From Morinoia aosen (Eukaryota > Arthropoda > Malacostraca > Amphipoda > Talitridae), in contig CM059557.1 in the NCBI GenBank assembly GCA_030386875.1, positions 54,390,514 to 54,454,513 of the forward strand: a DNA stretch of 64,000 nt, given 5' to 3'. Every line of letters begins with the position of its first letter. Position 1 is the stretch's first letter. Shown piece by piece: positions 1 to 55,160 of this stretch. Under the pieces are notes generated by a model that saw only the letters and a list, made by a program, of their open reading frames with translations, had not been told where the DNA came from and made no database searches. The position numbers and the translations under genes were made by a program.

Positions 1-3000
1 GTGTTGTGTTGTGTCTTGCGGGATCTGCTCTCGTGTTGTGCTGTGTATTGCGGGATCTGCTCTCGTGTTGTGTTGTGTCTTGCGGGATCTGCTCTCGTGT
101 TGTGTTGTCTTGCGGGATCTGCTCTCGTGTTGTGTTGTGTTGTGTCTTGCGGGATCTACTCTCGTGTTGTGCTGTGTCTTGCGGGATCTGCTCTCGTGTT
201 GTGTTGTGTCTTGCGGGATCTGCTCTCGTGTTGTGCTGTGTATTGCGGGATCTGCTCTCGTGTTGTGTTGTGTCTTGCGGGATCTGCTCTCGTGTTGTGC
301 TGTGTATTGCGGGATCTGCTCTCGTGTTGTGTTGTGTCTTGCGGGATCTGCTCTCGTGTTGTGTTGTCTTGCGGGATCTGCTCTCGTGTTGTGTTGTGTC
401 TTGCGGGATCTGCTCTCGTGCTGTGTTGTCTTGCGGGATCTGCTCTCGTGTTGTGTTGTGTCTTGCGGGATCTGCTCTCGTGTTGTGTTGTGTTGTTTCT
501 TGCGGGATCTACTCTCGTGTTGTGCTGTGTCTTGCGGGATCTGCTCTCGTGTTGTGTTGTGTCTTGCGGGATCTGCTCTCGTGTTGTGTTGTCTTGCGGG
601 ATCTGCTCTCGTGTTGTGCTGTGTCTTGCGGGATCTGCTCTCGTGTTGTGTTGTGTCTTGCGGGATCTGCTCTCGTGTTGTGTTGTGTTGTGTCTTGCGG
701 GATCTGCTCTCGTGTTGTGCTGTGTATTGCGGGATCTGCTCTCGTGTTGTGTTGTGTCTTGCGGGATCTGCTCTCGTGTTGTGTTGTCTTGCGGGATCTG
801 CTCTCGTGTTGTGTTGTCTTGCGGGATCTGCTCTCGTGTTGTGTTGTGTCTTGCGGGATCTGCTCTCGTGTTGTGTTGTGTCTTGCGGGATCTGCTCTCG
901 TGTTGTGTTGTCTTGCGGGATCTGCTCTCGTGTTGTGTTGTCTTGCGGGATCTGCTCTCGTGTTGTGCTGTGTATTGCGGGATCTGCTCTCGTGTTGTGT
1001 TGTGTCTTGCGGGATCTGCTCTCGTGTTGTGTTGTCTTGCGGGATCTGCTCTCGTGTTGTGTTGTCTTGCGGGATCTGCTCTCGTGTTGTGCTGTGTCTT
1101 GCGGGATCTGCTCTCGTGTTGTGCTGTGTCTTGCGGGATCTGCTCTCGTGTTGTGTTGTGTCTTGCGGGATCTGCTCTCGTGTTGTGTTGTCTTGCGGGA
1201 TCTGCTCTCGTGCTGTGTTGTCTTGCGGGATCTGCTCTCGTGTTGTGTTGTGTCTTGCGGGATCTGTTCTCGTGTTGTGTTGTGTTGTGTCTTGCGGGAT
1301 CTACTCTCGTGTTGTGTTGTGTCTTGCGGGATCTGCTCTCGTGTTGTGTTGTGTCTTGCGGGATCTGCTCTCGTGTTGTGCTGTGTATTGCGGGATCTGC
1401 TCTCGTGTTGTGTTGTGTCTTGCGGGATCTGCTCTCGTGTTGTGTTGTCTTGCGGGATCTGTTCTCGTGTTGTGCTGTGTCTTGCGGGATCTGCTCTCGT
1501 GCTGTGTTGTGTCTTGCGGGATCTGCTCTCGTGTTGTGCTGTGTACTGCGGGATCTGCCCTCGTGTTGTTTTGTGTCTTGCGGATCTGCTCTCGTGTTGT
1601 ATTGTGTCTTGCGGGATCTGCTCTCGTGTTGTGTTGTGTCTTGCGGGATCTGCTCTCGTGTTGTGCTGTGTCTTGCGGGATCTGCTCTCGTGTTGTGTTG
1701 TGTCTTGCGGGATCTGCTCTCGTGTTGTGCTGTGTCTTGCGGGATCTGCTCTCGTGTTGTGCTGTGTCTTGCGGGATCTGCTCTCGTGTTGTGTTGAGTC
1801 TTGCGGGATCTGCTCTCGTGTTGTGCTGTGTCTTGCGGGATCTGCTCTCGTGCTGTGCTGTGTCTTGCGGGATCTGCTCTCGTGTTGTGTTGTGTCTTGC
1901 GGGATCTGCTCTCGTGTTGTGTTGTGTCTTGCGGGATCTGCTCTCGTGCTGTGTTGTCTTGCGGGATCTGCTCTCGTGTTGTGTTGTGTCTTGCGGGATC
2001 TGCTCTCGTGTTGTGTTGTGTCTTGCGGGATCTGCTCTCGTGTTGTGTTGTGTCTTGCGGGATCTGCTCTCGTGTTGTGTTGTCTTGCGGGATCTGCTCT
2101 CGTGCTGTGTTGTCTTGCGGGATCTGCTCTCGTGTTGTGTTGTCTTGCGGGATCTGCTCTCGTGCTGTGCTGTGTCTTGCGGGATCTGCTCTCGTGTTGT
2201 GTTGTGTCTTGCGGGATCTGCTCTCGTGTTGTGTTGTCTTGCGGGATCTGCTCTCGTGCTGTGTTGTCTTGCGGGATCTGCTCTCGTGTTGTGTTGTGTC
2301 TTGCGGGATCTGCTCTCGTGTTGTGTTGTGTCTTGCGGGATCTGCTCTCGTGCTGTGCTGTGTCTTGCGGGATCTGCTCTCGTGTTGTGTTGTGTCTTGC
2401 GGGATCTGCTCTCGTGTTGTGTTGTCTTGCGGGATCTGCTCTCGTGCTGTGTTGTCTTGCGGGATCTGCTCTCGTGTTGTGTTGTGTCTTGCGGGATCTG
2501 CTCTCGTGTTGTGCTGTGTCTTGCGGGATCTGCTCTCGTGCTGTGTTGTCTTGCGGGACCTGCTCTCGTGTTGTGTTGTGTCTTGCGGGATCTGCTCTCG
2601 TGTTGTGCTGTGTCTTGCGGGATCTGCTCTCGTGCTGTGTTGTCTTGCGGGATCTGCTCTCGTGTTGTGTTGTGTCTTGCGGGATCTGCTCTCGTGTTGT
2701 GCTGTGTCTTGCGGGATCTGCTCTCGTGTTGTGTTGTGTCTTGCGGGATCTGCTCTCGGGCTGTGTTGTCTTGCGGGATCTGCTCTCGTGTTGTGCTGTG
2801 TCTTGCGGGATCTGCTCTCGTGTTGTGCTGTGTCTTGCGGGATCTGCTCTCGTGTTGTGCTGTGTCTTGCGGGATCTGCTCTCGTGTTGTGTTGTGTCTT
2901 GCGGGATCTGCTCTCGTGTTGTGCTGTGTCTTGCGGGATCTGCTCTCGTGCTGTGCTGTGTCTTGCGGGATCTGCTCTCGTGTTGTGTTGTGTCTTGCGG

Positions 3001-3735
3001 GATCTGCTCTCGTGTTGTGTTGTCTTGCGGGATCTGCTCTCGTGCTGTGTTGTCTTGCGGGATCTGCTCTCGTGTTGTGTTGTGTCTTGCGGGATCTGCT
3101 CTCGTGTTGTGTTGTGTCTTGCGGGATCTGCTCTCGTGCTGTGCTGTGTCTTGCGGGATCTGCTCTCGTGTTGTGTTGTGTCTTGCGGGATCTGCTCTCG
3201 TGTTGTGTTGTCTTGCGGGATCTGCTCTCGTGCTGTGTTGTCTTGCGGGATCTGCTCTCGTGTTGTGTTGTGTCTTGCGGGATCTGCTCTCGTGTTGTGC
3301 TGTGTCTTGCGGGATCTGCTCTCGTGCTGTGTTGTCTTGCGGGATCTGCTCTCGTGTTGTGTTGTGTCTTGCGGGATCTGCTCTCGTGTTGTGCTGTGTC
3401 TTGCGGGATCTGCTCTCGTGCTGTGTTGTCTTGCGGGATCTGCTCTCGTGTTGTGTTGTGTCTTGCGGGATCTGCTCTCGTGTTGTGCTGTGTCTTGCGG
3501 GATCTGCTCTCGTGTTGTGTTGTGTCTTGCGGGATCTGCTCTCGGGCTGTGTTGTCTTGCGGGATCTGCTCTCGTGTTGTGCTGTGTCTTGCGGGATCTG
3601 CTCTCGTGTTGTGCTGTGTCTTGCGGGATCTGCTCTCGTGTTGTGCTGTGTCTTGCGGGATCTGCTCTCGTGTTGTGTTGTGTCTTGCGGGATCTGCTCT
3701 CGTGTTGTGCTGTGTCTTGCGGGATCTGCTCTCGT
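1..3735. repeat. 30/32/37-bp satellite array (about 115-120 units)
   Basis: Tandem units share the core cttgcgggatctgctctc followed by a GTGTT-rich linker. Linker length gives units of 30, 32 or 37 bp, and the linker alternates between gtgttgtg and gtgctgtg. The plus strand is very poor in A outside the GGATCT core. The unit contains no TAA, TAG or TGA on either strand, so huge open frames run through it: Cys/Leu-rich on plus, and Arg/Asp/Gln/His-rich on minus. I read these as a by-product of the repeat and not as genes. Unit order is irregular on the left and strongly duplicated on the right. The array is cut by the window start, so its full length is unknown. Confidence 0.97.
2161..3732. 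repeat. 786-bp higher-order duplication inside the satellite
   Basis: Rare variants recur at exactly 786 bp. The gtgctgtgctg linker at 2161 and 2349 returns at 2947 and 3135, and the single-base variant ctctcggg near 2758 returns near 3544. The order of long, short and gtgctg units is the same in both blocks (2161-2946 and 2947-3732). This is a recent duplication of about 25 units, as expected from unequal exchange or amplification. Confidence 0.88.
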
Positions 3736-6813: not shown

Positions 6814-6823
6814 GCCGCGGGAA
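6814..6823. repeat. target-site duplication, left copy
   Basis: GCCGCGGGAA directly abuts the ATT-repeat tail of the LINE and matches 13800-13809 at the other end. Confidence 0.75.
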
Positions 6824-6980
6824 TAATAATAATAATGAGGGGTGTTGATACAATCAACATTAAAGCACGGACACGGGTCCTTTACTGCTCCCCTTTATGC
6901 ATGTCATCTGCGATCGCAAGGTCAATTTAGAAACTCATCATTAAAGGTAAGTCAATTGCAATGCAAAGTTACTGAAACAT
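6824..6980 (-). other. LINE 3' UTR and ATT-repeat tail
   Basis: About 140 bp follows the ORF2 stop (TAA at 6981-6983 on minus) and ends in four to five ATT repeats instead of poly(A). Short 3' simple-repeat tails are known for I-type elements, where they take part in priming reverse transcription. No AATAAA signal is evident close to the end. Confidence 0.7.
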
Positions 6981-9900
6981 TTAAATTAGGTCGTAGACAT
7001 CTATCACACGAAGATAGTTCATTAATTCCTTGACGTCTAAATGGCGTCCCAATACCGTCTCGACGGTAGGTTGTAGCGTTTGGCAAGCCTTTATACAATT
7101 TCTACTAATTGTTAGACTTTCACATTCTATGATTAGGTGTTTGACAGTTAGTGTTGAGTTGTTGCAAAACTCGCACACTGGTGCAATATCAGGTATCTCG
7201 TTGTTCATCAGGTAGCCATGCGTTAAGAATGTGTGTCCTATTCTGAGTCTGTTAACTATTATTTCCTCTTTACGTGATATTTTACCGAAGTCCAACTCTA
7301 TTCCTGGTGATGGTTGTATTTCCCTTAATTTGTCTCTGCAATTTTCCCACCTAGTTTTCCACTGGTTAATCACGGCTTGTCGAATTAATGGTTTCCAATC
7401 TGTGTAGCAAATTAGGATAAATTCTTCGTTTTTTTGGGTTGCGTTCTTGGCTGCAGTATCTGCAGCATCGTTATCGCCTATTCCGACATGGGAGGGGATC
7501 CAGCATATGTTGATGGCTTTGCCGCCTTTTTGTTTTTCGTGTATGTCGTGTTGTATTCGGCGTAGTACTGGATGGTATGTCTCGTACTTTAGGCTGTTAA
7601 CGACACTCAAGGAGTCGCAGTATATTACGAATTTTTTATCTCTTTTTTCATTAATGATGCCAAGGGCCAAGTGGATGGCGTGTATTTCGGCTGAGTATAT
7701 TGAGGCCTCTTTCGGTAGCGTTGCAGAGCGAACAATGGTGCCACATACTGCTGCCGCTCCTGTGCCATTTTCTCCTCTTGAGCCGTCTGTGTATATAGTT
7801 ACATATCCGTCATATTTTTCTTTTGTCATTCTTTTAAACTCTTGACGGATTATGTATTCAGGGGTTTCGTTTTTTGGTAGTTCGGTGAGGTCGGTATTTA
7901 TTGTTGGTTTTGTTAGTGCCCATGTGGGAGTATTAATGTTTAGTAGTCGGTATGAAAAGTCTGTTTTAACTCGATTTTTCCGGAGGCCAAATTTTTCTAT
8001 CAGTATTTGCATTTTAATAGCGAATGTTGGAGTTATTTTCCTATTTTGGAAGAGTAGTCGGTTACTCGGCGTCACAGTGTAATTGAAGGCGGGGTTTCCA
8101 TGTTGACTTCGGATTTTGTAGTAATAACAGAGGGATAGATAGTTTCGCCTAATATCGGGAGGCATTTCATTGCAAATAATGTGTAGACTATTTGTTGGGC
8201 TGGATTTGAATGCTCCTGTAGCGATTCGTAGTGCTTCGGATGTAATAGACTCGATGGGCTTTAGAGTTGTTTGGCTGGCAGAGTTATAGATTATTGATCC
8301 ATAATCGAGGATTGATCTTGTAATGCTTCGATAGATTTTGAGGATCGTGGTTTGGTCTGCTCCCCAGCTTTGAGCTGTTATTGATTTTAATAAGTTCAGG
8401 CTATCATTCCCTTTTTTCTTTAAAGCAGTGATGTGTTGTTGCCAGTTCAATTTTTCATCGAAGATCAGGCCGAGGAATTTATGTGAGTTTGTGTATTGAA
8501 TGTTTTCATCATTGAGTTTAAGTATTGGGCTGAGGAAGAGTCCGGGTATGGTATTGAAATGTATTGCTTTGCTTTTACTGGATGAGAATTTGAAGCCATG
8601 ATTTTGGGACCACTTAAATATTTTATTGATACAGGATTGCATTTTGTCTTGGATAACCTTGAGGTCTTGGTGGTGGTATCCAACTTGTAAGTCGTCAACG
8701 TATAGTGAGTGGTGGAATTTGTTGTCCGGTGGGATCTGCTTGGCTATGTCGTTTATTTTGAGGGCGAATAACGTGACCGAGAGGACACTGCCTTGAGGGA
8801 CTCCGTTTCGCTGTTCGTAAATATTTGAGCTATAGTTGTCTATTCGGACACTTAGTGTTCTACGTTCTAGGAATTTGGCGACAAAAGTTGGTAATCTGCC
8901 CCTGAGTCCGATATCGAATAAATCCCGTATGATCCCATATCTCCATGTTCTGTCGTAAGCTTTTTCAAGGTCGAAGAACACTGAGATGAAGTGTTCTCTG
9001 TTTGCGAATGCTAATCTTATGGTTGAGTCTAGTCTGACCAAATGATCTGTAGTGCTACGCCCCTTTCTGCATCCACACTGCTCTTTACTAATTATATTGT
9101 GCATATCTAAGTATTCGATCAGTCGATTATTGATCATTCGTTCCATTAATTTGCACAGACAGCTCGTGAGTGCGATGGGTCTGTAGTTATTTGGTTTACT
9201 AGGGTCTTTCCCGGGTTTTGGGATTGGTATTATTATCGAGTGCTGCCATTGTGGTGGGAAGTAGCCCGTTGTCCAGAATTTGTTAAAAGTGTTCAAGATG
9301 TATTGTTTAGCTGGTAGTTTTAGGTGTTTGATCATGTCGTATGTTATTTTGTCGTTTCCTGGTGATGTGTTTTTAGTTTTTCTTAGGGCGGATTCAAATT
9401 CATGCATATGGAAAGTTTGGTTATAGATTTCTACGTTTGGCGAACTGAAATGGATCGGTATAGTTTCATTTGCGGTTTTGATTTGTTGAAATTCAGGGGA
9501 ATAGCTTTGATCGCTTGACACTTCGCTGAAATTTTCAGCCAGTTTATTCACAATATCAGGGATTGTGCTGTAGTGTATATTGTTTTCGATCAATATGTGG
9601 ACTTTTCTTTGTACTCGACCTTTTATTTTCCTTATTGTTTCGTATACTCTGGCCATTGGTGTATATTTATTAAGTTGGTTTACGAAATTCTTCCACGTTT
9701 CCTGTTTGCTTGCTCGAATTTTGTATTTATGATTTGCCCTTGCTCGTTTCCAGTTAATTAAGTTAGTAAGATTTTTATTGCGGTGGTATTTCTTGTAAAG
9801 TTTTTCTCTTTCTTCTTTTGATTCTTGGAGTTCTTTTGTCCACCATGGTTTGGGGTAGTATTTTCCTGGTATATAAGTTGGGATGGCTTTTTCAGCTGCT

Positions 9901-10706
9901 GAGTAGAACCGCTGGTATAAGTCGGTGAGTAGTTGTTCGTTATTAGTTGTTGTGTTCAACATCGGCTTGTTCCATGCATTGTTATTGGAATATAGATCCC
10001 AGTTAGCTTTTGAGTAGTTCCAGATAGTTGATGGGGGTTGGTTGGGACGATTTTCGTTAAGGTAGGTGATCAAAATTGGGCATTGATCGCTATCACCCGG
10101 CGAGTCGAAAGCAACCCAGTCTAATAGCACGGCCAATGTAGGTGAGCAAATTGTCAGATCGATAGCTGATTCTGAATTGTATCCTATTCTAGTGGGTGAA
10201 CCAGTATTTAATAGGCAAAGGTTATTGTTTGTAATAACAGTTTCTATCAGCTTCCCCCTATTATCTGTATTTTTGCAGCCCCATATGGTGCTGTGTCCGT
10301 TGAAGTCGCCGGCTAGGATGAAAGGATTCGGTAGTTGGTGGATTAGGTTATTTTGTTTTTCGTTTGTGACTGTTTGTCTACCGGGTATGTAGATGCTGCA
10401 GATGGTTATCAGCTGTCCTATGTTTACTTGAATGGCCACGCTTTGTAGTTCAGTCTGTAGATTCAGTTCACAAAAAGGTATTGAGCTATGGACATATATT
10501 CCAACACCTCCATGGGGGGTTCTGTTGTAATGACCGTGTCGTAGCACATTACTGTAGCCGTTTATTCTAAACTGGCAGTTATCCCATAGCTTTGTTTCTT
10601 GAAGTGCTATTATACTGGGTTGGTGGTTGTTTATTGTTTCCATTAGTTCATCTTTCTTTCCCCTGATGCCTTGGCAGTTCCACTGCAGGATTCCTACGTT
10701 AGCCAT
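6981..10706 (-). CDS. LINE ORF2: APE endonuclease, reverse transcriptase, RNase H
   Basis: A 1,241-residue polyprotein for target-primed reverse transcription. An APE-type endonuclease occupies about residues 4-215: WNCQGIRGK, QET at 36-38, GDFN at 133-136, SAIDLT near 180, then SDQ at 206-208. Reverse transcriptase lies at about 440-760: SPGNDKI, PIPKPGKDP, NYRPIALTS, motif A FFDLEKAYD with D579, NGVPQGSVLS at 634-643 and YVDD at 669-672. RNase H lies at about 967-1090: YTDGS with D974, E1007, D1031 and WIPSHVG followed by D1083, so all four acidic residues are present. A C-terminal CCHC-like set follows (C1178, C1181, H1190, C1195). The start is the first Met, just before the conserved endonuclease strand and 43 bp after the ORF1 stop, so translation probably depends on reinitiation. 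The family normally has SDH in the endonuclease; the Gln here removes a catalytic His. Confidence 0.97.
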   Translation of the reverse strand: MANVGILQWNCQGIRGKKDELMETINNHQPSIIALQETKLWDNCQFRINGYSNVLRHGHYNRTPHGGVGIYVHSSIPFCELNLQTELQSVAIQVNIGQLITICSIYIPGRQTVTNEKQNNLIHQLPNPFILAGDFNGHSTIWGCKNTDNRGKLIETVITNNNLCLLNTGSPTRIGYNSESAIDLTICSPTLAVLLDWVAFDSPGDSDQCPILITYLNENRPNQPPSTIWNYSKANWDLYSNNNAWNKPMLNTTTNNEQLLTDLYQRFYSAAEKAIPTYIPGKYYPKPWWTKELQESKEEREKLYKKYHRNKNLTNLINWKRARANHKYKIRASKQETWKNFVNQLNKYTPMARVYETIRKIKGRVQRKVHILIENNIHYSTIPDIVNKLAENFSEVSSDQSYSPEFQQIKTANETIPIHFSSPNVEIYNQTFHMHEFESALRKTKNTSPGNDKITYDMIKHLKLPAKQYILNTFNKFWTTGYFPPQWQHSIIIPIPKPGKDPSKPNNYRPIALTSCLCKLMERMINNRLIEYLDMHNIISKEQCGCRKGRSTTDHLVRLDSTIRLAFANREHFISVFFDLEKAYDRTWRYGIIRDLFDIGLRGRLPTFVAKFLERRTLSVRIDNYSSNIYEQRNGVPQGSVLSVTLFALKINDIAKQIPPDNKFHHSLYVDDLQVGYHHQDLKVIQDKMQSCINKIFKWSQNHGFKFSSSKSKAIHFNTIPGLFLSPILKLNDENIQYTNSHKFLGLIFDEKLNWQQHITALKKKGNDSLNLLKSITAQSWGADQTTILKIYRSITRSILDYGSIIYNSASQTTLKPIESITSEALRIATGAFKSSPTNSLHIICNEMPPDIRRNYLSLCYYYKIRSQHGNPAFNYTVTPSNRLLFQNRKITPTFAIKMQILIEKFGLRKNRVKTDFSYRLLNINTPTWALTKPTINTDLTELPKNETPEYIIRQEFKRMTKEKYDGYVTIYTDGSRGENGTGAAAVCGTIVRSATLPKEASIYSAEIHAIHLALGIINEKRDKKFVIYCDSLSVVNSLKYETYHPVLRRIQHDIHEKQKGGKAINICWIPSHVGIGDNDAADTAAKNATQKNEEFILICYTDWKPLIRQAVINQWKTRWENCRDKLREIQPSPGIELDFGKISRKEEIIVNRLRIGHTFLTHGYLMNNEIPDIAPVCEFCNNSTLTVKHLIIECESLTISRNCIKACQTLQPTVETVLGRHLDVKELMNYLRVIDVYDLI

Positions 10707-10749: not shown

Positions 10750-13293
10750 TTACTTTCTTTTGGGTGATCTATCTCTAATCCTAGAGTCACGAGAGTAGTG
10801 TGATTGTTCCTCATCTGAGTAAATTTGTCGTTTATCATGTCTGTTGCGGCTGTAGGTGGGGGATCGTGATTTTGATCGTGATCTTGGTCGCTTCTTGTTT
10901 TGGGTTTTGGAAGGTTTGTGCTGCTTTGGGGGTTTGAATTCGTTGAATATTCGTATGGCTTCTTGTCTCATAATAGGGTTGCATTCGCTCGTGCCATCTT
11001 CCTCATTTTCAGATCCTTCGGCTGTAGTTTCAATATTAATTGTGGATTTGAGCAATTGTGTTGGGTTGGGTTTAATGCGGAGTATCTCTTTTTCGCATGT
11101 TTCGTGGTCGCGTTGTGAAGTTTGCGGTGGTTTGGTTTCTGGTGTATCGGTTGTGTTATCAGTTGTACCTGGTTCGTTACAAAGTGGGGGAGCCATATTT
11201 TGTTCGGTGATCGTTTGGTTTTTGGGAACCGCCATAAAGGGTTGGGGGGTTGGTACTTTGGGTATTTGATCCGTTCGATTTCTGGTTATTTGTGCGTAGC
11301 TTTGGTCGAGTTGTGGGGATCGTTTGTGGTATATTATAAGGGCTTGTTCTCTTGATACGTTTTGTTTAGTACGGATAGAAATTAGTTCTTGTTGCTTGCG
11401 TTGTTCCGGGCAAGTCCGGTCTCCAGTTTTGTGATTGTTTCCGCAGTGGTAGCATGTCAAGTTGTTTTCCGTGCAATTTGTTGCTTCATGGCCTTTTGTT
11501 GCGCATTTTCCACACACGAACTCTTCACTGGTACATCTTTTAGCAGTATGGTTGTATTCCAAGCACTTTTTACACATCATAGGGCGGTCGAAGTATTCAT
11601 ATATCCTACTCTTGCAGTCTTGGCCAAGGATGTCGATATACTCAGGGGGGGTTGAGCCTCTGAAAGTTAGAAGTATTGCTTTTGCATTTGTGTTACGGCT
11701 TTTTATCCAATTTGCTGGTTCGACATTTTTGATTATATGGTTTTCCATTAAACCTTGTTTGAATTTCTCGAAGTTGGTGAAGTCGTAATTATAGATGTAG
11801 GCGAGTCCTTTTGAGAGATTTACATAGTTATTTTCTGTTACTTGCACAGGGATGTTGTTTATGTCTTTGATTTTCTGTATTTCATCTTTTTGTCGTGTGT
11901 GATCTAATTCTACAATAAATGTGTTTTTGCCACCCGATCGAATAGATTTGGGTTTTCCTTGGATTTGGTTTGCAATACATTTTTCTAGGAGCCATGGAGT
12001 AATTTTCCGCTTTTCGTTTTCCTGCATTGTTATATTGAAATGAGTTGTGGGGGTGTTCGTATCTGATATTGGTATCTCGGAGTGTCCTGTGACTATCTGT
12101 ACAGCACGACGCCTATTAACTCGTTGTTCTTGTTGGACTTTGCATATTTCTGTTTCCATGATATGTTTCGGGCATTCTCTGTGGCCAGTTTCATGTTGAC
12201 GCTTGCAATGCATGCAGGAGAGGGCGCTGCCACAGTGTTCGCTGTCATGGCCTGTTTCTCCGCAGCGTTTACAGTTTGCTTCGTTATGGCAGTGTTTGGC
12301 TGTGTGGCCGTAGTTTTGACATTTGTGGCAGATCATTGGTCTATTAATAAATGGGTATACTATCGTATCTGATTTTTCGCCTGGGATATATATAGAGTCT
12401 GGTGTAGTGTAGCTATTAAAGGTTAGTAGAAGTGGGGTGGTTTGGGAGAATCGAGTTTTAATGAAGCTGGCACGGACAGCGTCACTGATATTGTACTGGC
12501 TCTTTAGGCCTTCCACAAAATCTTCCATATTATCTACATCGTATTCTTGAATATATATTAGTCCTTTGGATTGATTGTAGTATGGGTGTTCGCTGATCTG
12601 GCAATTAATGCCGTCGACGTTATTAAGTCTGGTGATGCGCTCAGATTGGGGTTTGTTTCGAGTTTCTATGATAAAGCTATCTTTACCTGAATAAGTTATT
12701 CTTTTCGCCTTCAAACCAGTTATTTTGACTATTTCTTCTTGGAGGCAAAATGGATTTATTTGGTTTCTCTCTTCGACTTTGAATTTGACCGAGAAGAACT
12801 TTGTATAATGGTCGTTCTTCGTCATTTCTTGGTTCAACGATATGGGTGTGTATTTGTTAGCTTTGCTTTGTTTTCTCACATTTTCTTTCTCGCAGCCCAT
12901 GATTTTACTGTTTTTCCCTATGTTCTGCGCTTTCGTCATTTCTAGGATTTTTTCGAGTGTATTTTCGATTTTCCTTATTCGATCGTCTACATTTTGTGCT
13001 TCTTTTTCAACTTCATGTTTATCGGGGTTGATGCATTTGGTTGCATCACCTGCCGCAAGTCTATTCAGCACTTCATTTAATTTAGCCTCCAATTGGTCCA
13101 CCTTACAGGTAGCACCGTTTGGTTCCGGTAGAGTTTTTTCGGTTGTTTGGTCAGATGTTTCATTGTTTTCGCTTATCTTCCTGGTGATGGTGTTAGTTTT
13201 GGGGTTTGTTGCACCTAAGTTGGTAGCAGTGCTTAGGTTGTTTTTGTTGGGGTTTATTCGTTGTTTGAATTTGTTTTTATTTTTGGCGTACAT
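10750..13293 (-). CDS. LINE ORF1: Gag-like protein with duplicated module and SR-like tail
   Basis: An 847-residue protein, long for an I-type ORF1. Residues 63-125 look like a coiled coil (VDQLEAKLNEVLNRL, then IRKIENTLEKILEM). Two homologous halves follow. Half 1 (about 165-405) and half 2 (about 417-660) each have an RRM-like region containing KGL(I/A)YI and LLLTF or ILLTF, then NRPMICHKC or DRPMMCKKC, then three zinc knuckles. The knuckle cysteines begin at C322, C341 and C360 in half 1, and at C574, C594 and C614 in half 2. The tail (about 799-847) is rich in RS/SR dipeptides. The expected role is binding element RNA in ribonucleoprotein particles; the tail may direct nuclear or splicing-factor contacts, which is inference. 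The ATG at 13291-13293 is the first in frame. No stop or frameshift is present. Confidence 0.92.
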   Translation of the reverse strand: MYAKNKNKFKQRINPNKNNLSTATNLGATNPKTNTITRKISENNETSDQTTEKTLPEPNGATCKVDQLEAKLNEVLNRLAAGDATKCINPDKHEVEKEAQNVDDRIRKIENTLEKILEMTKAQNIGKNSKIMGCEKENVRKQSKANKYTPISLNQEMTKNDHYTKFFSVKFKVEERNQINPFCLQEEIVKITGLKAKRITYSGKDSFIIETRNKPQSERITRLNNVDGINCQISEHPYYNQSKGLIYIQEYDVDNMEDFVEGLKSQYNISDAVRASFIKTRFSQTTPLLLTFNSYTTPDSIYIPGEKSDTIVYPFINRPMICHKCQNYGHTAKHCHNEANCKRCGETGHDSEHCGSALSCMHCKRQHETGHRECPKHIMETEICKVQQEQRVNRRRAVQIVTGHSEIPISDTNTPTTHFNITMQENEKRKITPWLLEKCIANQIQGKPKSIRSGGKNTFIVELDHTRQKDEIQKIKDINNIPVQVTENNYVNLSKGLAYIYNYDFTNFEKFKQGLMENHIIKNVEPANWIKSRNTNAKAILLTFRGSTPPEYIDILGQDCKSRIYEYFDRPMMCKKCLEYNHTAKRCTSEEFVCGKCATKGHEATNCTENNLTCYHCGNNHKTGDRTCPEQRKQQELISIRTKQNVSREQALIIYHKRSPQLDQSYAQITRNRTDQIPKVPTPQPFMAVPKNQTITEQNMAPPLCNEPGTTDNTTDTPETKPPQTSQRDHETCEKEILRIKPNPTQLLKSTINIETTAEGSENEEDGTSECNPIMRQEAIRIFNEFKPPKQHKPSKTQNKKRPRSRSKSRSPTYSRNRHDKRQIYSDEEQSHYSRDSRIRDRSPKRK

Positions 13294-13799
13294 ACTCCCG
13301 GCTTCAGAGGGGGTTTCCCCGCCTCGAAGTCGGGGTTTGAGGTATTCGCTGATTGTTGCCAGAAGTGCTTAAAGTTTTACTTTGGGATCCAAAGTAGTAA
13401 TCCAAAATGGACTATTGGTCTGCGTAACTTAAGTCTATTCTTATAGGCTATTTAAGGGCCCTGGAATATAGGGCAAATTAAAGAGAAAATAACTACGCAA
13501 AAGAGACCCAAGCTCCGAAGAGCTCGGGCCGCCGCCCGACTTTGTTCTACCCAACAACGGGGAATTGGAAAAAAAACTAAAATCTTAATCCCTCGAAAGA
13601 AAACTCAAAAGATAGAGGAAAGAGCAGTTGGGTATTTCAACGGTACCACCACGAGAAGGTGCCGGGTCAGCTGGATACCTGCTCGTGAGTAGGTATTCCT
13701 GTATCAATCCTTGTCTACGACTTCTTTCCCTTCACCAAGCTCAATAATTCAATAATTTGGTACCAGTAAACGTGGTAAAGGGAACACGTAAAATTTCCC
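13294..13799 (-). promoter_or_regulatory. LINE 5' UTR, presumed internal promoter
   Basis: About 506 bp between the right target-site copy and the ORF1 ATG. LINEs of this type carry an internal promoter in this region. I see a GC-rich inverted motif near 13530 (cgggccgccgcccg) but no TATA box I would rely on. The element boundary rests on the target-site duplication, since the 5' terminal sequence is not one I recognise. Confidence 0.55.
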
Positions 13800-36986: not shown

Positions 36987-37205
36987 AAAATTTTGAGTAG
37001 AATTGGAGCATCACTGAGCAATTTATGAAATATCCCTCAATAATACACTACTGGGCAGGAAAATTTTGAGTAGAATTGGAGCATAACTGAGAAATGTATA
37101 AAATATCCCTCAATAATACACTACTGGGCAGGAAAATTTTGAGTAGAATTGGAGCATCACTGAGAAATTTATAAAAAATCCCTCAATAATACACTACTGG
37201 GCAGG
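36987..37205. repeat. three tandem copies of a 73-bp unit
   Basis: AAAATTTTGAGTAGAATTGG begins at 36987, 37060 and 37133. Each copy ends with CCCTCAATAATACACTACTG then GGCAGG. The copies differ at only a few positions, so the triplication is recent. Confidence 0.95.
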
Positions 37206-40200
37206 AAACATATTGATATTGTCCGCACATCGCTGATAACGGCAGGACGATGTCATTATCCAGGGCTGCCACGGCGACATTCTTGGTTCGTCTCAATAAC
37301 GAGGGATTTTCCGGCTATTGAGGAGCGAGGCTTATCGTTTTTCGGGCTGTGATATGAAGTCGAACTGTCCTTCGCATCCCGATTTAATTGCCTTCCGATC
37401 GATGAGAAACTCGGACGCTGGCGTTGATTTTAAACTTAGTAAGTCCAATACATTGAGAGCGGCGACGTTAGAGTGAGCTCTAGGTATAAAATAATAATAT
37501 TCTCGCAGTTTAAATTAAATACTTGTGATGCACGTGAACAAAAAATAGTCATTACATTTGAAAACCAGGGAACGATAGCAGTAAATACTGAAATAATATC
37601 TCTAATACACAATAATTTTGAGTTAAGCGTAGTGTGGACAAGTGCGTATGTTGTAACGACACCAAATCCCACCCACATGTATTGCTGACGTGAGCCCTCA
37701 AAAAAACACATATATGAGCACTTTTTCTACAACAGCAATATGCGCTTGTCCGACGAGTTTTCAGTAATTTTGTTTCGGCAAACCAGTGCTGGGCGGTGAG
37801 GTAACGGCGGTCTTTTCGGTGCCGGCGAGCGACGAAATTTGTTAAATTTTCGAGCACGAACCAAACACTCTACCATTTGGATGAGAAACTTATGAGCATA
37901 GCGGCATGCATGCAACTTGAGGGTGATTAAAGTCAGCAATTGAAAGGAATGCACCGTGGTACTGACAGCCTTCTGCGTAGCGAGAGACTCGCAGATAGAA
38001 AACGCATTTTACGCCCAGAAAGCGCATTCTTTGCCTCTATACAAAGAGGGAATTCAGTGCAGCTCAACATTTCTCTATTGGATGATAAAAGGCTACCATC
38101 ATTTGATGAACAAAATCACTGCTTTGTGCCTCTGATCAAAGGATATCGGAGCCCAGTTCACGTTCGTTAGATCATTGCCAGTTCCATTGTAACCCTGGAT
38201 TCATAAGGCGAGAAGCTACGCAGTTGCACTAGGACCGTCGCTATTTTATTACATGAACTTGCCCTCACATCGGCTTACTCTTTCGTACGAGAAATGAGAT
38301 GTGGAGGAGGCCGTAAATACGTGGGAGTTTATCACGTAAAAAAGGGGGTAAACATAGCACGTGCTGTACGATTACGCGATCAGAGAGATGGTGACGCCGC
38401 GTAAATATATTTCTTCCAGAGTAAATATTTCTGACTCCCGTCTTTCAAAAGTCACACATGGTGTTCATGTCTGATGAGTGCTCCAGTATCCATCACTAAG
38501 CACCAGCATAATTTAAGGAAGTAATTGTTCAAACAGCAAAATGTCTGTGCACATTTTAACTTATGCACTCTAGCTATTAAAACAACTGTTCGCTAAGGTA
38601 GAGCTGTATTTTATTAGTAAAAACTGAAATGGAAGGGCTTATGAGAGTAGCTTTCCAATTTTGATTTGTTATTCTAGTGTATATAGAACAACTGAATGGG
38701 TTCGAGTCATTAGTAAAAAATAAACAAATGACCGGAAATTTGCAGTCATGCACCGTTCAGATATCCCGTTTACAGGTACAGTTAGGGGCAGACAGATTGT
38801 GCAAGCAAGCAACAAACTTTTTAAAATTATGCAGAGAGATTCCATGCATGTTCACGATAATGATAAGGGAATATTCATCAGTTGATCTTGATCTCTGCAA
38901 AAAGGTGATCTTAGTTTTACACGCTTTCCGAGATTGGATCATTTGGCCGTCTGGAAGCTGTAAGATCGAATTTACGAGGCATCTGATGAATTTCTTAAAA
39001 ATTGAAACTACACTAGATAATGAATCCAGAAACACAGAGAACCAATTGCTGTGATCAAGAGAAGTTCAAATAGAACACATTTCAAAGGTGGCTGTCAAAC
39101 GAGCCTCACTGCACAGTAGAGACGTGTGCTACTCCAGACTACCCTGCGCAAGACCCTACAAAACTGGCCTTGAACGCAATAACATCAATGCAACGCGTTG
39201 ATTGAAGACATAGAAGATACACTAACAGGGAAAAATCCCTAATTAAATGTCGCACAACGGCCACATATGTAGTGATTTCTCGGAAATCGATTCCAGGATT
39301 GAGCAGTTCAATTAACAGTTGAAAGCAAATGACGAGCGCAAGGACAAACAAAATACTGAGTTTGTCTTCCTCATGATCTCGAAGACTTGAATATCTGAAC
39401 CGTCTCCATGACCTTCAGTGGCCGAGGCAACCGTGCGATTCCTCTGAATTCATAGATTCCTCTGTTCTTTGGATCTGTGGGTGTGCTGAAGATGTTACTA
39501 ACGCGTAACATATCAGTGCATATTGCTTTGCTCTGCTTGAAGTTAATAGAAATGCTGTCGGAAGGCTTACAGTGGAGATATCAGAATTAAAGTAAACGCA
39601 TCTTTCATTCGTAAATGCAGGTATTTATGTAGAATAACGTACAAGCACGCTTAATGACTGAGTTTATGACTGAAATAAATTCAATTGAAATACATGACAC
39701 TGAGCTCGAAGCTACTACTGATTTAAAATATTTATTCTGTTGTTCACTGATAGTTGAGTTGTTCTTCGTCGTACGACAAGGATGTCTCTGTAAAAAATGC
39801 AAAAATGCCATAAATTAGAATGACTTTATACCATTTCTCAGTAAAACGCTTTTTCATCCACGAAGAAGCTTTCATTTTTCTGTTGAAAGAGTCAGTCACA
39901 TATTCCACTTCTTATTAGTCACCAAAGTTCTGCGCTTCGCATCGTCTACGAGATAAAGAGGTCATGGTCCGGAGGCGCAAAGCGGAGTGAACACGGCTCA
40001 TGAAGCATAACCTTCTAAATCTCCTCGCACCTCAGTACGATGTACAAAGCCAGTCGAGTCTTGCTATACTGGGATCGAAAAAAGCTATTGTGCAAATTCG
40101 AATGTGCCTTTTTCGTCCTGTTTCCATGGAAACGTTTAAAACGGATTGCGGAGGTTGTGTTCGTGTTTCATGAGCGCAACTTGCGTTGATAGACTTTTTT

Positions 40201-52870: not shown

Positions 52871-53100
52871 ATTTACGGGTCGTAAAAGCTGATTTCAGCG
52901 TCGATATGACTGACTGAGCTGCGGGACAATCTTTTTAATTAAGGAGGATTTCGAGGAGATCAAATCAAATGAAAACTGTGAGCGTCGATGAGCGAAAAAC
53001 GTCGATGCAGAAAAATATTTTAACGAAAAGAGCACTTCTGCAATTCATTCTATGGCTGCTCCTGCAGTTCATTATCACATAACTTAAGTAGTTAATTACA

Positions 53101-55160
53101 GTGCTGCTCGATCACTGGTTTATACTGCTACTCGGGCACAGGATTATACTGCTACTCGAGCACTGGATTATACTGCTACTCGAGCACAGGATTATACTGC
53201 TCCTCGAGCACTGGATTATACTGCTACTCGGGCACAGGATTATACTGCTCCTCGAGCACTGGATTATACTGCTACTCGAGCACAGGATTATACTGCTACT
53301 CGGGCACAGGATTATACTGCTCCTCGAGCACTGGATTATACTGCTACGCGAGCACTGGATTATACTGCTACTCGAGCACAGGATTATACTGCTACTCGGG
53401 CACAGGATTATACTGCTACTCGGGCACAGGATTATACTGCAACTCGGGCACAGGATTATACTGCTACTCGGGCACATGATTATACTGCTACTCGGGCACA
53501 GGATTATACTGCAACTCGGGCACTGGATTATACTGCTACTCGAGCACTGGATTATACTGCTACGCGAGCACTGGATTATACTGCTACTCGAGCACAGGAT
53601 TATACTGCTACTCGGGCACAGGATTATACTGCTACTCGAGCACAGGATTATACTGCTACTCGGGCACAGGATTATACTGCTACTCGGGCACAGGATTATA
53701 CTGCTACTCGGGCACAGGATTATACTGCTCCTCGAGCACTGGATTATACTGCTACTCGAGCACAGGATTATACTGCTCCTCGAGCACTGGATTATACTGC
53801 TACTCGGGCACAGGATTATACTGCTCCTCGAGCACTGGATTATACTGCTACTCGAGCACAGGATTATACTGCTACTCGGGCACAGGATTATACTGCTCCT
53901 CGAGCACTGGATTATACTGCTTTGCGAGCACTGGATTATACTGCTACTCGAGCACAGGATTATACTGCTACTCGGGCACAGGATTATACTGCTACTCGGG
54001 CACAGGATTATACTGCAACTCGGGCACAGGATTATACTGCTACTCGGGCACAGGATTATACTGCTACTCGGGCACAGGATTATACTGCAACTCGGGCACT
54101 GGATTATACTGCTACTCGAGCACTGGATTATACTGCTACGCGAGCACTGGATTATACTGCTACTCGAGCACAGGATTATACTGCTACTCGGGCACAGGAT
54201 TATACTGCTACTCGAGCACAGGATTATACTGCTACTCGGGCACAGGATTATACTGCTACTCGGGCACAGGATTATACTGCTACTCGAGCACTGGATTATA
54301 CTGCTCCTCGAGCACTGGATTATACTGCTCCTCGAGCACTGGATTATACTGTTACTCTAGCACTGATTATACTGCTACGCGAGCACTGGATTATACTGCT
54401 ACTCGAGCACAGGATTATACTGCTACTCGGGCACAGGATTATACTGCTACTCGGGCACAGGATTATACTGCTACTCGGGCACAGGATTATACTGCTACTC
54501 GGGCACAGGATTATACTGCTTCTCGGGCACAGGATTATACTGCTACTCGGGCACAGGATTATACTGCTACTCGAGCACTGGATTATACTGCTACTCGAGC
54601 ACAGGATTATACTGCTACTCGGGCACAGGATTATACTGCTACTCGGGCACAGGATTATACTGCTACTCGAGCACTGGATTATACTGCTCCTCGAGCACTG
54701 GATTATACTGCTCCTCGAGCACTGGATTATACTGTTACTCTAGCACTGATTATACTGCTACGCGAGCACTGGATTATACTGCTACTCGAGCACTGGATTA
54801 TACTGCTACTCGAGCTCTGGATTATACTGCTACTCGAGCACTGGATTATACTGCTACTCTAGCACTGGATTATACTGTTACTCTAGCACTGATTATACTG
54901 CTACGCGAGCACTGGATTATACTGCTACTCGAGCACTGGATTATACTGCTACTCGAGCACTGGATTATACTGCTACTCTAACACTGGATTATACTGCTAC
55001 TCGGGTACTGGATTATACTGCTACTCGAGCACTGGATTATACTGCTACTCGAGCACTGGATTATACTACTACTCGAGCACTGGATTATACTGCTACTCGA
55101 GCACTGGATTATACTGCTACTCGAGCACTGGACTATACTGCTACTCGAGCAGTTGACTAT
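53101..55160. repeat. 24-bp satellite array (~86 units)
   Basis: The unit is TATACTGCTACTCGAGCACT plus GGAT, with recurrent variants CTCGGGCACA, CTCCTCGAG, CTACGCGAG and GCAACTCGGG. Period 24 and lack of plus-strand stops in two frames create long open frames (IILLLEHW or DYTATRAL octads). Two frames being equally open, with no start context or flanking coding sequence, argues against a gene. A 576-bp higher-order repeat (24 units) covers about 53149-54250; a 383-bp one follows at 54351/54734. Units with a 1-bp loss (gcactgatta) break the phase there. Confidence 0.97.

Follow-up and report, generated by a model that had tools for sequence, protein, structure and literature searches.

The ORF1 protein of a LINE in the genome of Morinoia aosen contains its complete nucleic-acid-binding module twice in tandem. 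The most probable origin of this architecture (probability roughly 0.8) is a single in-frame event on the stem of a clade of doubled elements, in which the entire module was duplicated after the split from single-module relatives, with both modules being kept ever since; a tree of the modules and a tree of the reverse transcriptases (RTs) both fit one duplication at this position. The element lies within the window, that is, the whole stretch of 64,000 nucleotides of contig CM059557.1 that was analysed, and its features are collected in Table 1.

Homology of the two halves and anatomy of ORF1

A module of about 240 amino acids is present twice in the open frame of ORF1, at a constant offset of 252 residues, and each copy is composed of two RRM-like folds, three CCHC knuckles and a short helical tail, in this order. 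The two halves are 35% identical over 239 amino acids, with 2 gaps (BLASTP, E 3e-53), and only 15 residues (400 to 416) separate the aligned parts. The preliminary description of this DNA had proposed a tandem duplication of the whole nucleic-acid-binding module on the basis of matching blocks, and the homology from end to end at a constant offset of 252 bears this out; the three pairs of words that had been named (KGLIYI 243/KGLAYI 495, LLLTF 288/ILLTF 540 and RPMICHKC 318/RPMMCKKC 570) all recur exactly 252 residues further on.

In principle, the zinc-knuckle regions could be alike through chance or composition only, which can be regarded as practically negligible: apart from the knuckle motif itself nothing favors such a likeness, and it is contradicted by the gapless match of the parts preceding the knuckles (33% identity over 155 amino acids, BLASTP, E 1e-29) as well as by the constancy of the offset. 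Furthermore, local alignment of half A with half B gave a score of 424, far above the maxima obtained in 500 shuffles of half B (76) and in 500 shuffles in which Cys and His were kept in place (126). The duplication had been made to hinge on the homology of the halves, and a comparison of the profile of first modules (n=5) with that of second modules (n=7) yielded a probability of 100 and an E-value of 5.6e-63.

At third codon positions, the two halves are 32% identical, and about 30% would be expected by chance from the base counts; thus, the duplication is old and does not represent an assembly repeat, and synonymous sites have reached saturation between A and B, in agreement with the earlier view that the halves are diverged and the duplication ancient. 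An assembly artefact or a recent repeat was also rejected, given the low protein identity (35%) and the fact that the halves share no exact DNA match of more than 10 bases. Comparison of the first with the second RRM-like fold revealed no detectable further internal repeat.

The 12 zinc ligands per module are all present in both modules of the window ORF1, and the six knuckles that had been noted, versus three in relatives, occur as six regularly spaced motifs. AlphaFold2 models of the halves, each computed with an alignment of the two halves alone (two sequences), had mean pLDDT values of 71.7 and 67.6, with most of the knuckle region below 50; they predict the order beta-alpha-beta-beta-alpha-beta for the first fold of both modules and the same order minus the second helix for the second fold. 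With two RRM-like folds modelled per module, the ORF1 protein probably contains four. A Pfam search for an RRM in ORF1 gave no match; zf-CCHC was matched below threshold and in half B only, and a profile of the halves weakly matched the knuckles of retroviral nucleocapsids, including that of HIV-1 (E 0.003).

The N-terminal 160 residues and the last 57 residues both lie outside the repeated stretch. Within the former, the best 28-residue heptad window spans residues 91-118 (1 of 300 shuffles was equally good), and a weak, sub-threshold match to a CCDC90-like Pfam family (E 0.48) covers residues 64-122. The basic, RS-rich end of ORF1 recalls proteins of the splicing type.

Table 1. Coordinates of the LINE in the window and of the parts of its ORF1 protein
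Feature	Position in window	Strand	Basis
ORF1, 847 aa, duplicated module	10750..13293	-	open frame
ORF2, 1241 aa: endonuclease, reverse transcriptase, RNase H	6981..10706	-	Pfam
Element 5' untranslated region	13294..13799	-	between probable TSD and ORF1 start; boundary inferred
Probable target-site duplication (TSD), 5'-end copy, GCCGCGGGAA	13800..13809	+	longest direct repeat between flanks
Probable TSD, 3'-end copy	6814..6823	+	longest direct repeat between flanks
Element 3' end, (ATT)n tail	6822..6839	-	overlaps edge of probable TSD
Module A, residues 161-405	12079..12813	-	half comparison, module tree
Module B, residues 413-657	11323..12057	-	half comparison, module tree
Module A, first RRM-like fold, residues 166-235	12589..12798	-	AlphaFold2: beta-alpha-beta-beta-alpha-beta
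Module A, second RRM-like fold, residues 242-315	12349..12570	-	AlphaFold2; second helix absent from model
Module B, first RRM-like fold, residues 417-487	11833..12045	-	AlphaFold2
Module B, second RRM-like fold, residues 493-567	11593..11817	-	AlphaFold2; second helix absent from model
Zinc knuckle 1, residues 322-335	12289..12330	-	C-x2-C-x4-H-x4-C
Zinc knuckle 2, residues 341-354	12232..12273	-	C-x2-C-x4-H-x4-C
Zinc knuckle 3, residues 360-374	12172..12216	-	C-x2-C-x3-H-x6-C
Zinc knuckle 4, residues 574-587	11533..11574	-	C-x2-C-x4-H-x4-C
Zinc knuckle 5, residues 594-607	11473..11514	-	C-x2-C-x4-H-x4-C
Zinc knuckle 6, residues 614-628	11410..11454	-	C-x2-C-x3-H-x6-C
Coiled-coil-like N-terminal region, residues ~64-122	12928..13104	-	heptad window, weak Pfam match
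Basic RS-rich C-terminal tail, residues 791-847	10753..10923	-	pI 11.4, nine RS/SR dipeptides

The element, which we take to be a LINE of the I-group type, is probably present in the window as a full-length insertion of about 7 kb, because a 10-bp direct repeat was found of which one copy directly adjoins the 3' (ATT)n tail; a match of this size has an estimated chance of about 6% by length alone. ORF2 combines endonuclease, RT and RNase H, the set of domains that serves as the criterion for the I group, with Pfam matches above cut-off to RVT_1 (6.2e-35), Exo_endo_phos_2 (6.1e-19) and RNase_H (3.9e-13). No further copies of the element were found within the 64-kb window. The host genome (1.99 Gb in 29 contigs) contains at least 53 matches to ORF1, all full length at 99-100% identity and 51 of the 53 best-scored without a stop, and at least 150 matches to module B, all 99-100% identical; it should be noted that these counts comprise the best-scored candidates only and are uninformative on older copies. 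The intact open reading frames, the probable 10-bp target-site duplication and the many near-identical copies are what would be expected of an autonomous, recently active LINE. An open frame of 4209 amino acids in one of the module B matches was dismissed as an artefact of a run of N.

Related families and the origin of the duplication

The preliminary description had called for a search for other LINE ORF1 proteins with two modules, and such proteins were found in the same genome. An RT query gave at least 150 matches, eight representatives were picked by hand for variety of open-frame length and identity, and the 1.8 kb upstream of each were read: all eight elements carry two modules. The knuckle pattern occurs six times in seven of them and five times in L071, an older doubled copy in which one cysteine of knuckle 4 has been lost; in L065, L067 and L070 the frames are broken within the upstream stretch, with both modules still being recognisable. 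Together with the window family, the doubled elements represent at least five lineages, and the window RT is 61-65% identical to those of the other doubled families. Outside this genome, no doubled ORF1 was found in viral, bacterial/archaeal, phage and plasmid sequence collections; the viral contigs contained no relative and the phage collection no match to ORF2. The plasmid collection gave one distant LINE-type RT, on L002 (NZ_CP104070.1), a 39.8-kb 'plasmid' filed under Alicyclobacillus, which also has a cat gene and an IncFIA replicon and has the appearance of a cloning-vector contaminant, namely a BAC clone.

Of two scans of the bacterial and archaeal genome contigs, one revealed no relative, and the other, run with a piece of the RT, yielded four LINE pieces (L003-L006). 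Three are on contigs labelled as gill symbionts of Solemya and one is in a Sulfurovum MAG, and the RT of the window element is 55-58% identical to theirs. These pieces are taken to be host DNA, in the case of L006 because G+C changes from 0.53-0.56 in the first 3 kb, with genes of bacterial type, to mostly 0.36-0.44 from 7 kb onward, where the LINE is located. L006 (NZ_JRAA01000003.1, 512645-532857) is a LINE with both ORFs open near the end of a 537-kb Solemya velum symbiont scaffold, and the drop in G+C at about the position of the LINE suggests a chimeric scaffold rather than gene transfer. Only two of the four contigs, L006 and L004, both filed under Solemya symbionts, reach ORF1. The two resemble the window element in their RTs (57% and 55% identical, respectively) and in the layout of the ORF1 module, but have one module instead of two; in L004, the spacing of the first knuckle is shifted and the frame is broken after the module.

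The L006 module gave 141 matches in the Morinoia genome, of which 46 copies of other families were examined, 30 as loci and 16 by region, in open frames of at least 150 amino acids; some of the copies are truncated. All 46 show one module, with three knuckles in 43 and two in 3 according to a simple pattern, and in the single-module proteins the module is followed by a long tail. When the seven near-identical loci of the window family (L008-L014) were set aside, 50 modules were reduced to 13 at 75% identity, and the single-module copies formed nine groups at this level. At least nine groups of single-module ORF1 thus reside in one genome and, as judged by eye, their N- and C-terminal parts differ around a conserved module.

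The module tree had 23 rows, comprising 11 single, 5 first and 7 second modules; trees were drawn with midpoint rooting. Excluded from it were the first module of L065 and that of L067, each split by frame breaks, as well as the two modules of L070, which are partial, and the two of L072, a near copy of L069. Modules A and B are set apart from the single modules with a support of 100/100; the second modules cluster together (97/98; 98% of 200 bootstraps), as do the first modules, with moderate support (86/87; 88% of 200 bootstraps). A tree of the halves had been recommended for dating the duplication, and this grouping, with the single modules outside, speaks for an old event. The RT tree had 19 rows, namely seven doubled, eight single-module and four contaminant elements; L070, L072 and L052, one of the nine single-module families, for which there was no RT match, are absent from it. 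All seven doubled elements fall into a single clade (99/97; 100% of 200 bootstraps), and the eight families of this genome that have one module are split from the doubled and contaminant elements (88/88; 90% of bootstraps), with the four contaminant elements, for two of which ORF1 is known, not being a supported group (25/6). Among the families sampled, the duplication has a single origin.

Alternatively, A and B could stem from two related elements whose ORF1s were fused via recombination or template switching, which seems distinctly unlikely. According to PMC4120745, the ORF1s of LINEs are built of modules and may have passed from one lineage to another, and A and B are 28-36% identical, like single modules among themselves (mean 32%, range 22-71). 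However, none of the 11 single modules sampled is as close to A or to B as these two are to each other (100/100), and the mere 15 residues between the halves contrast with the long tails that follow the module in single-module proteins, so that a fusion would have required a near-exact cut.

Selection on the two modules and their possible function

Both modules are under selection between close families. For the pairs L065/L066 and L067/L071, dN/dS amounted to 0.108 and 0.114 in module B and, in module A, where the RRM part was used, to 0.068 and 0.133 (Nei-Gojobori method, own script); single copies were compared, so that some changes after insertion are included. The near-copy pair L069/L072, with few changes, gave 0.38 (A) and 0.40 (B), and between more distant families dS was saturated in all comparisons but one. 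Thus, the earlier proposal that the duplication has been kept under selection is supported by values of 0.07-0.13 in both modules between close families.

Differences between A and B that are fixed across 5 A and 7 B rows are restricted to five positions: F166/H418, C231/V483, F277/W529, N293/R545 and E380/Q634, of which Asn293 (Arg545 in B) adjoins the third strand of the second fold. Because there are just five such positions, it is at most hinted that the two modules may be beginning to divide labour. The branch of module B is longer than that of A in the module trees; relative-rate tests of A versus B were mostly non-significant (p 0.15 and 0.10; in a second set, 1 of 11 below 0.05), and therefore no faster evolution of B is claimed.

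According to PMC4120745, the role ascribed to the RRM and CCHC domains in ORF1 proteins of LINEs is to bind the transcript, to stabilise it and to act as its chaperone, and packaging of the mRNA of SART1 involves all three knuckles. On the basis of these roles, the most probable mechanism would be that ORF1p chains self-associate via the N-terminal coiled-coil-like region and coat the RNA of their own element, each chain holding the RNA by two linked modules, which would result in bivalent binding. We infer RNA binding, self-association and a benefit of doubling for what would be a nucleocapsid-like, nucleic-acid-binding protein.

Coiled-coil-like heptads were present in all five doubled proteins tested (0-2 of 300 shuffles were as good) by a rough measure of our own, the nine doubled elements being represented without L067, L070, L071 and L072. 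None of 9 single-module proteins reached the level of the doubled proteins, the nearest being L051 (14/300) and L017 (18/300), and five of the 9 single-module N-termini had no proline-free window at all. L006 likewise differs from the window ORF1 in its short N-terminus, which by this rough measure has no coiled-coil-like stretch. As no single-module protein reached the level of the doubled ones, doubling and self-association may have been gained on the same stem.

As to the benefit of the doubling, the preliminary description had suggested a higher affinity for RNA or the bridging of two RNA segments by one protein. Given the same origin, the two modules might simply be redundant, with total affinity being all that matters, at somewhat below even odds. 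The similar dN/dS values of A and B, the identical zinc ligands and the small number of fixed differences (five) would all be in accord with redundancy. Against it speaks that A and B have stayed distinct from each other in all five family lineages of the module tree, as exemplified by Asn293 versus Arg545. A more specific and rather doubtful idea is that A and B have different nucleic-acid partners, for example, element RNA for A and cDNA or target DNA for B during target-primed reverse transcription. If true, such an ORF1 would represent a LINE nucleocapsid whose coiled-coil stalk bears two specialised heads that evolve separately.

Comparison with known ORF1 proteins and further features of the window

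In type I or Jockey-like ORF1 proteins, CCHC knuckles follow upon one or two RRMs (PMC4120745, PMC3905857), and a table of PMC4120745 gives one or two RRMs and three knuckles for the Jockey superfamily. Each module of the window ORF1 resembles these proteins, insofar as they are described in the pertinent parts of these sources, in having RRM-like folds directly before three CCHC knuckles; unlike in them, the whole set occurs twice per chain, bringing the knuckles to six and the RRM-like folds probably to four. The described Jockey-type examples have one RRM-CCHC set with three knuckles; the window ORF1 and all eight related elements sampled have two sets. Similarly, the I factor of Drosophila has three Cys-His motifs in ORF1 and endonuclease, RT and RNase H in ORF2 (excerpt of PMC2881922); the window element shares the Cys-His motifs in ORF1 and the three ORF2 activities, but has six motifs instead of three, a comparison made by description only.

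The preliminary description had raised the possibility that all members of the clade have this architecture and that it has already been described. Several related families do have it; no title or abstract describing a duplicated or six-knuckle ORF1 was found in full-text literature searches, the scope of which did not extend to Repbase and most subscription journals. The doubled ORF1 is most likely a variant of the type I (RRM plus CCHC) LINE ORF1 with a novel architecture; Repbase may contain doubled members that have gone unremarked.

According to PMC4120745, less is understood about ORF1 proteins than about ORF2. The duplication constitutes a natural experiment, placed by ORF1 and ORF2 trees and kept in several families, that enables a direct test of the needs of RNA packaging, with one doubled family offering many near-identical copies and the single-module families of the same genome serving as matched controls.

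Apart from the LINE, the window contains several tandem repeats. Positions 1-3735 are occupied by about 118 copies of a 32-bp minisatellite, which is open in several frames, so that the long open reading frames in this region are spurious. About 86 copies of a 24-bp minisatellite are located at 53095-55151, and three near-identical tandem units of 73 bp each are present at 36987-37216.
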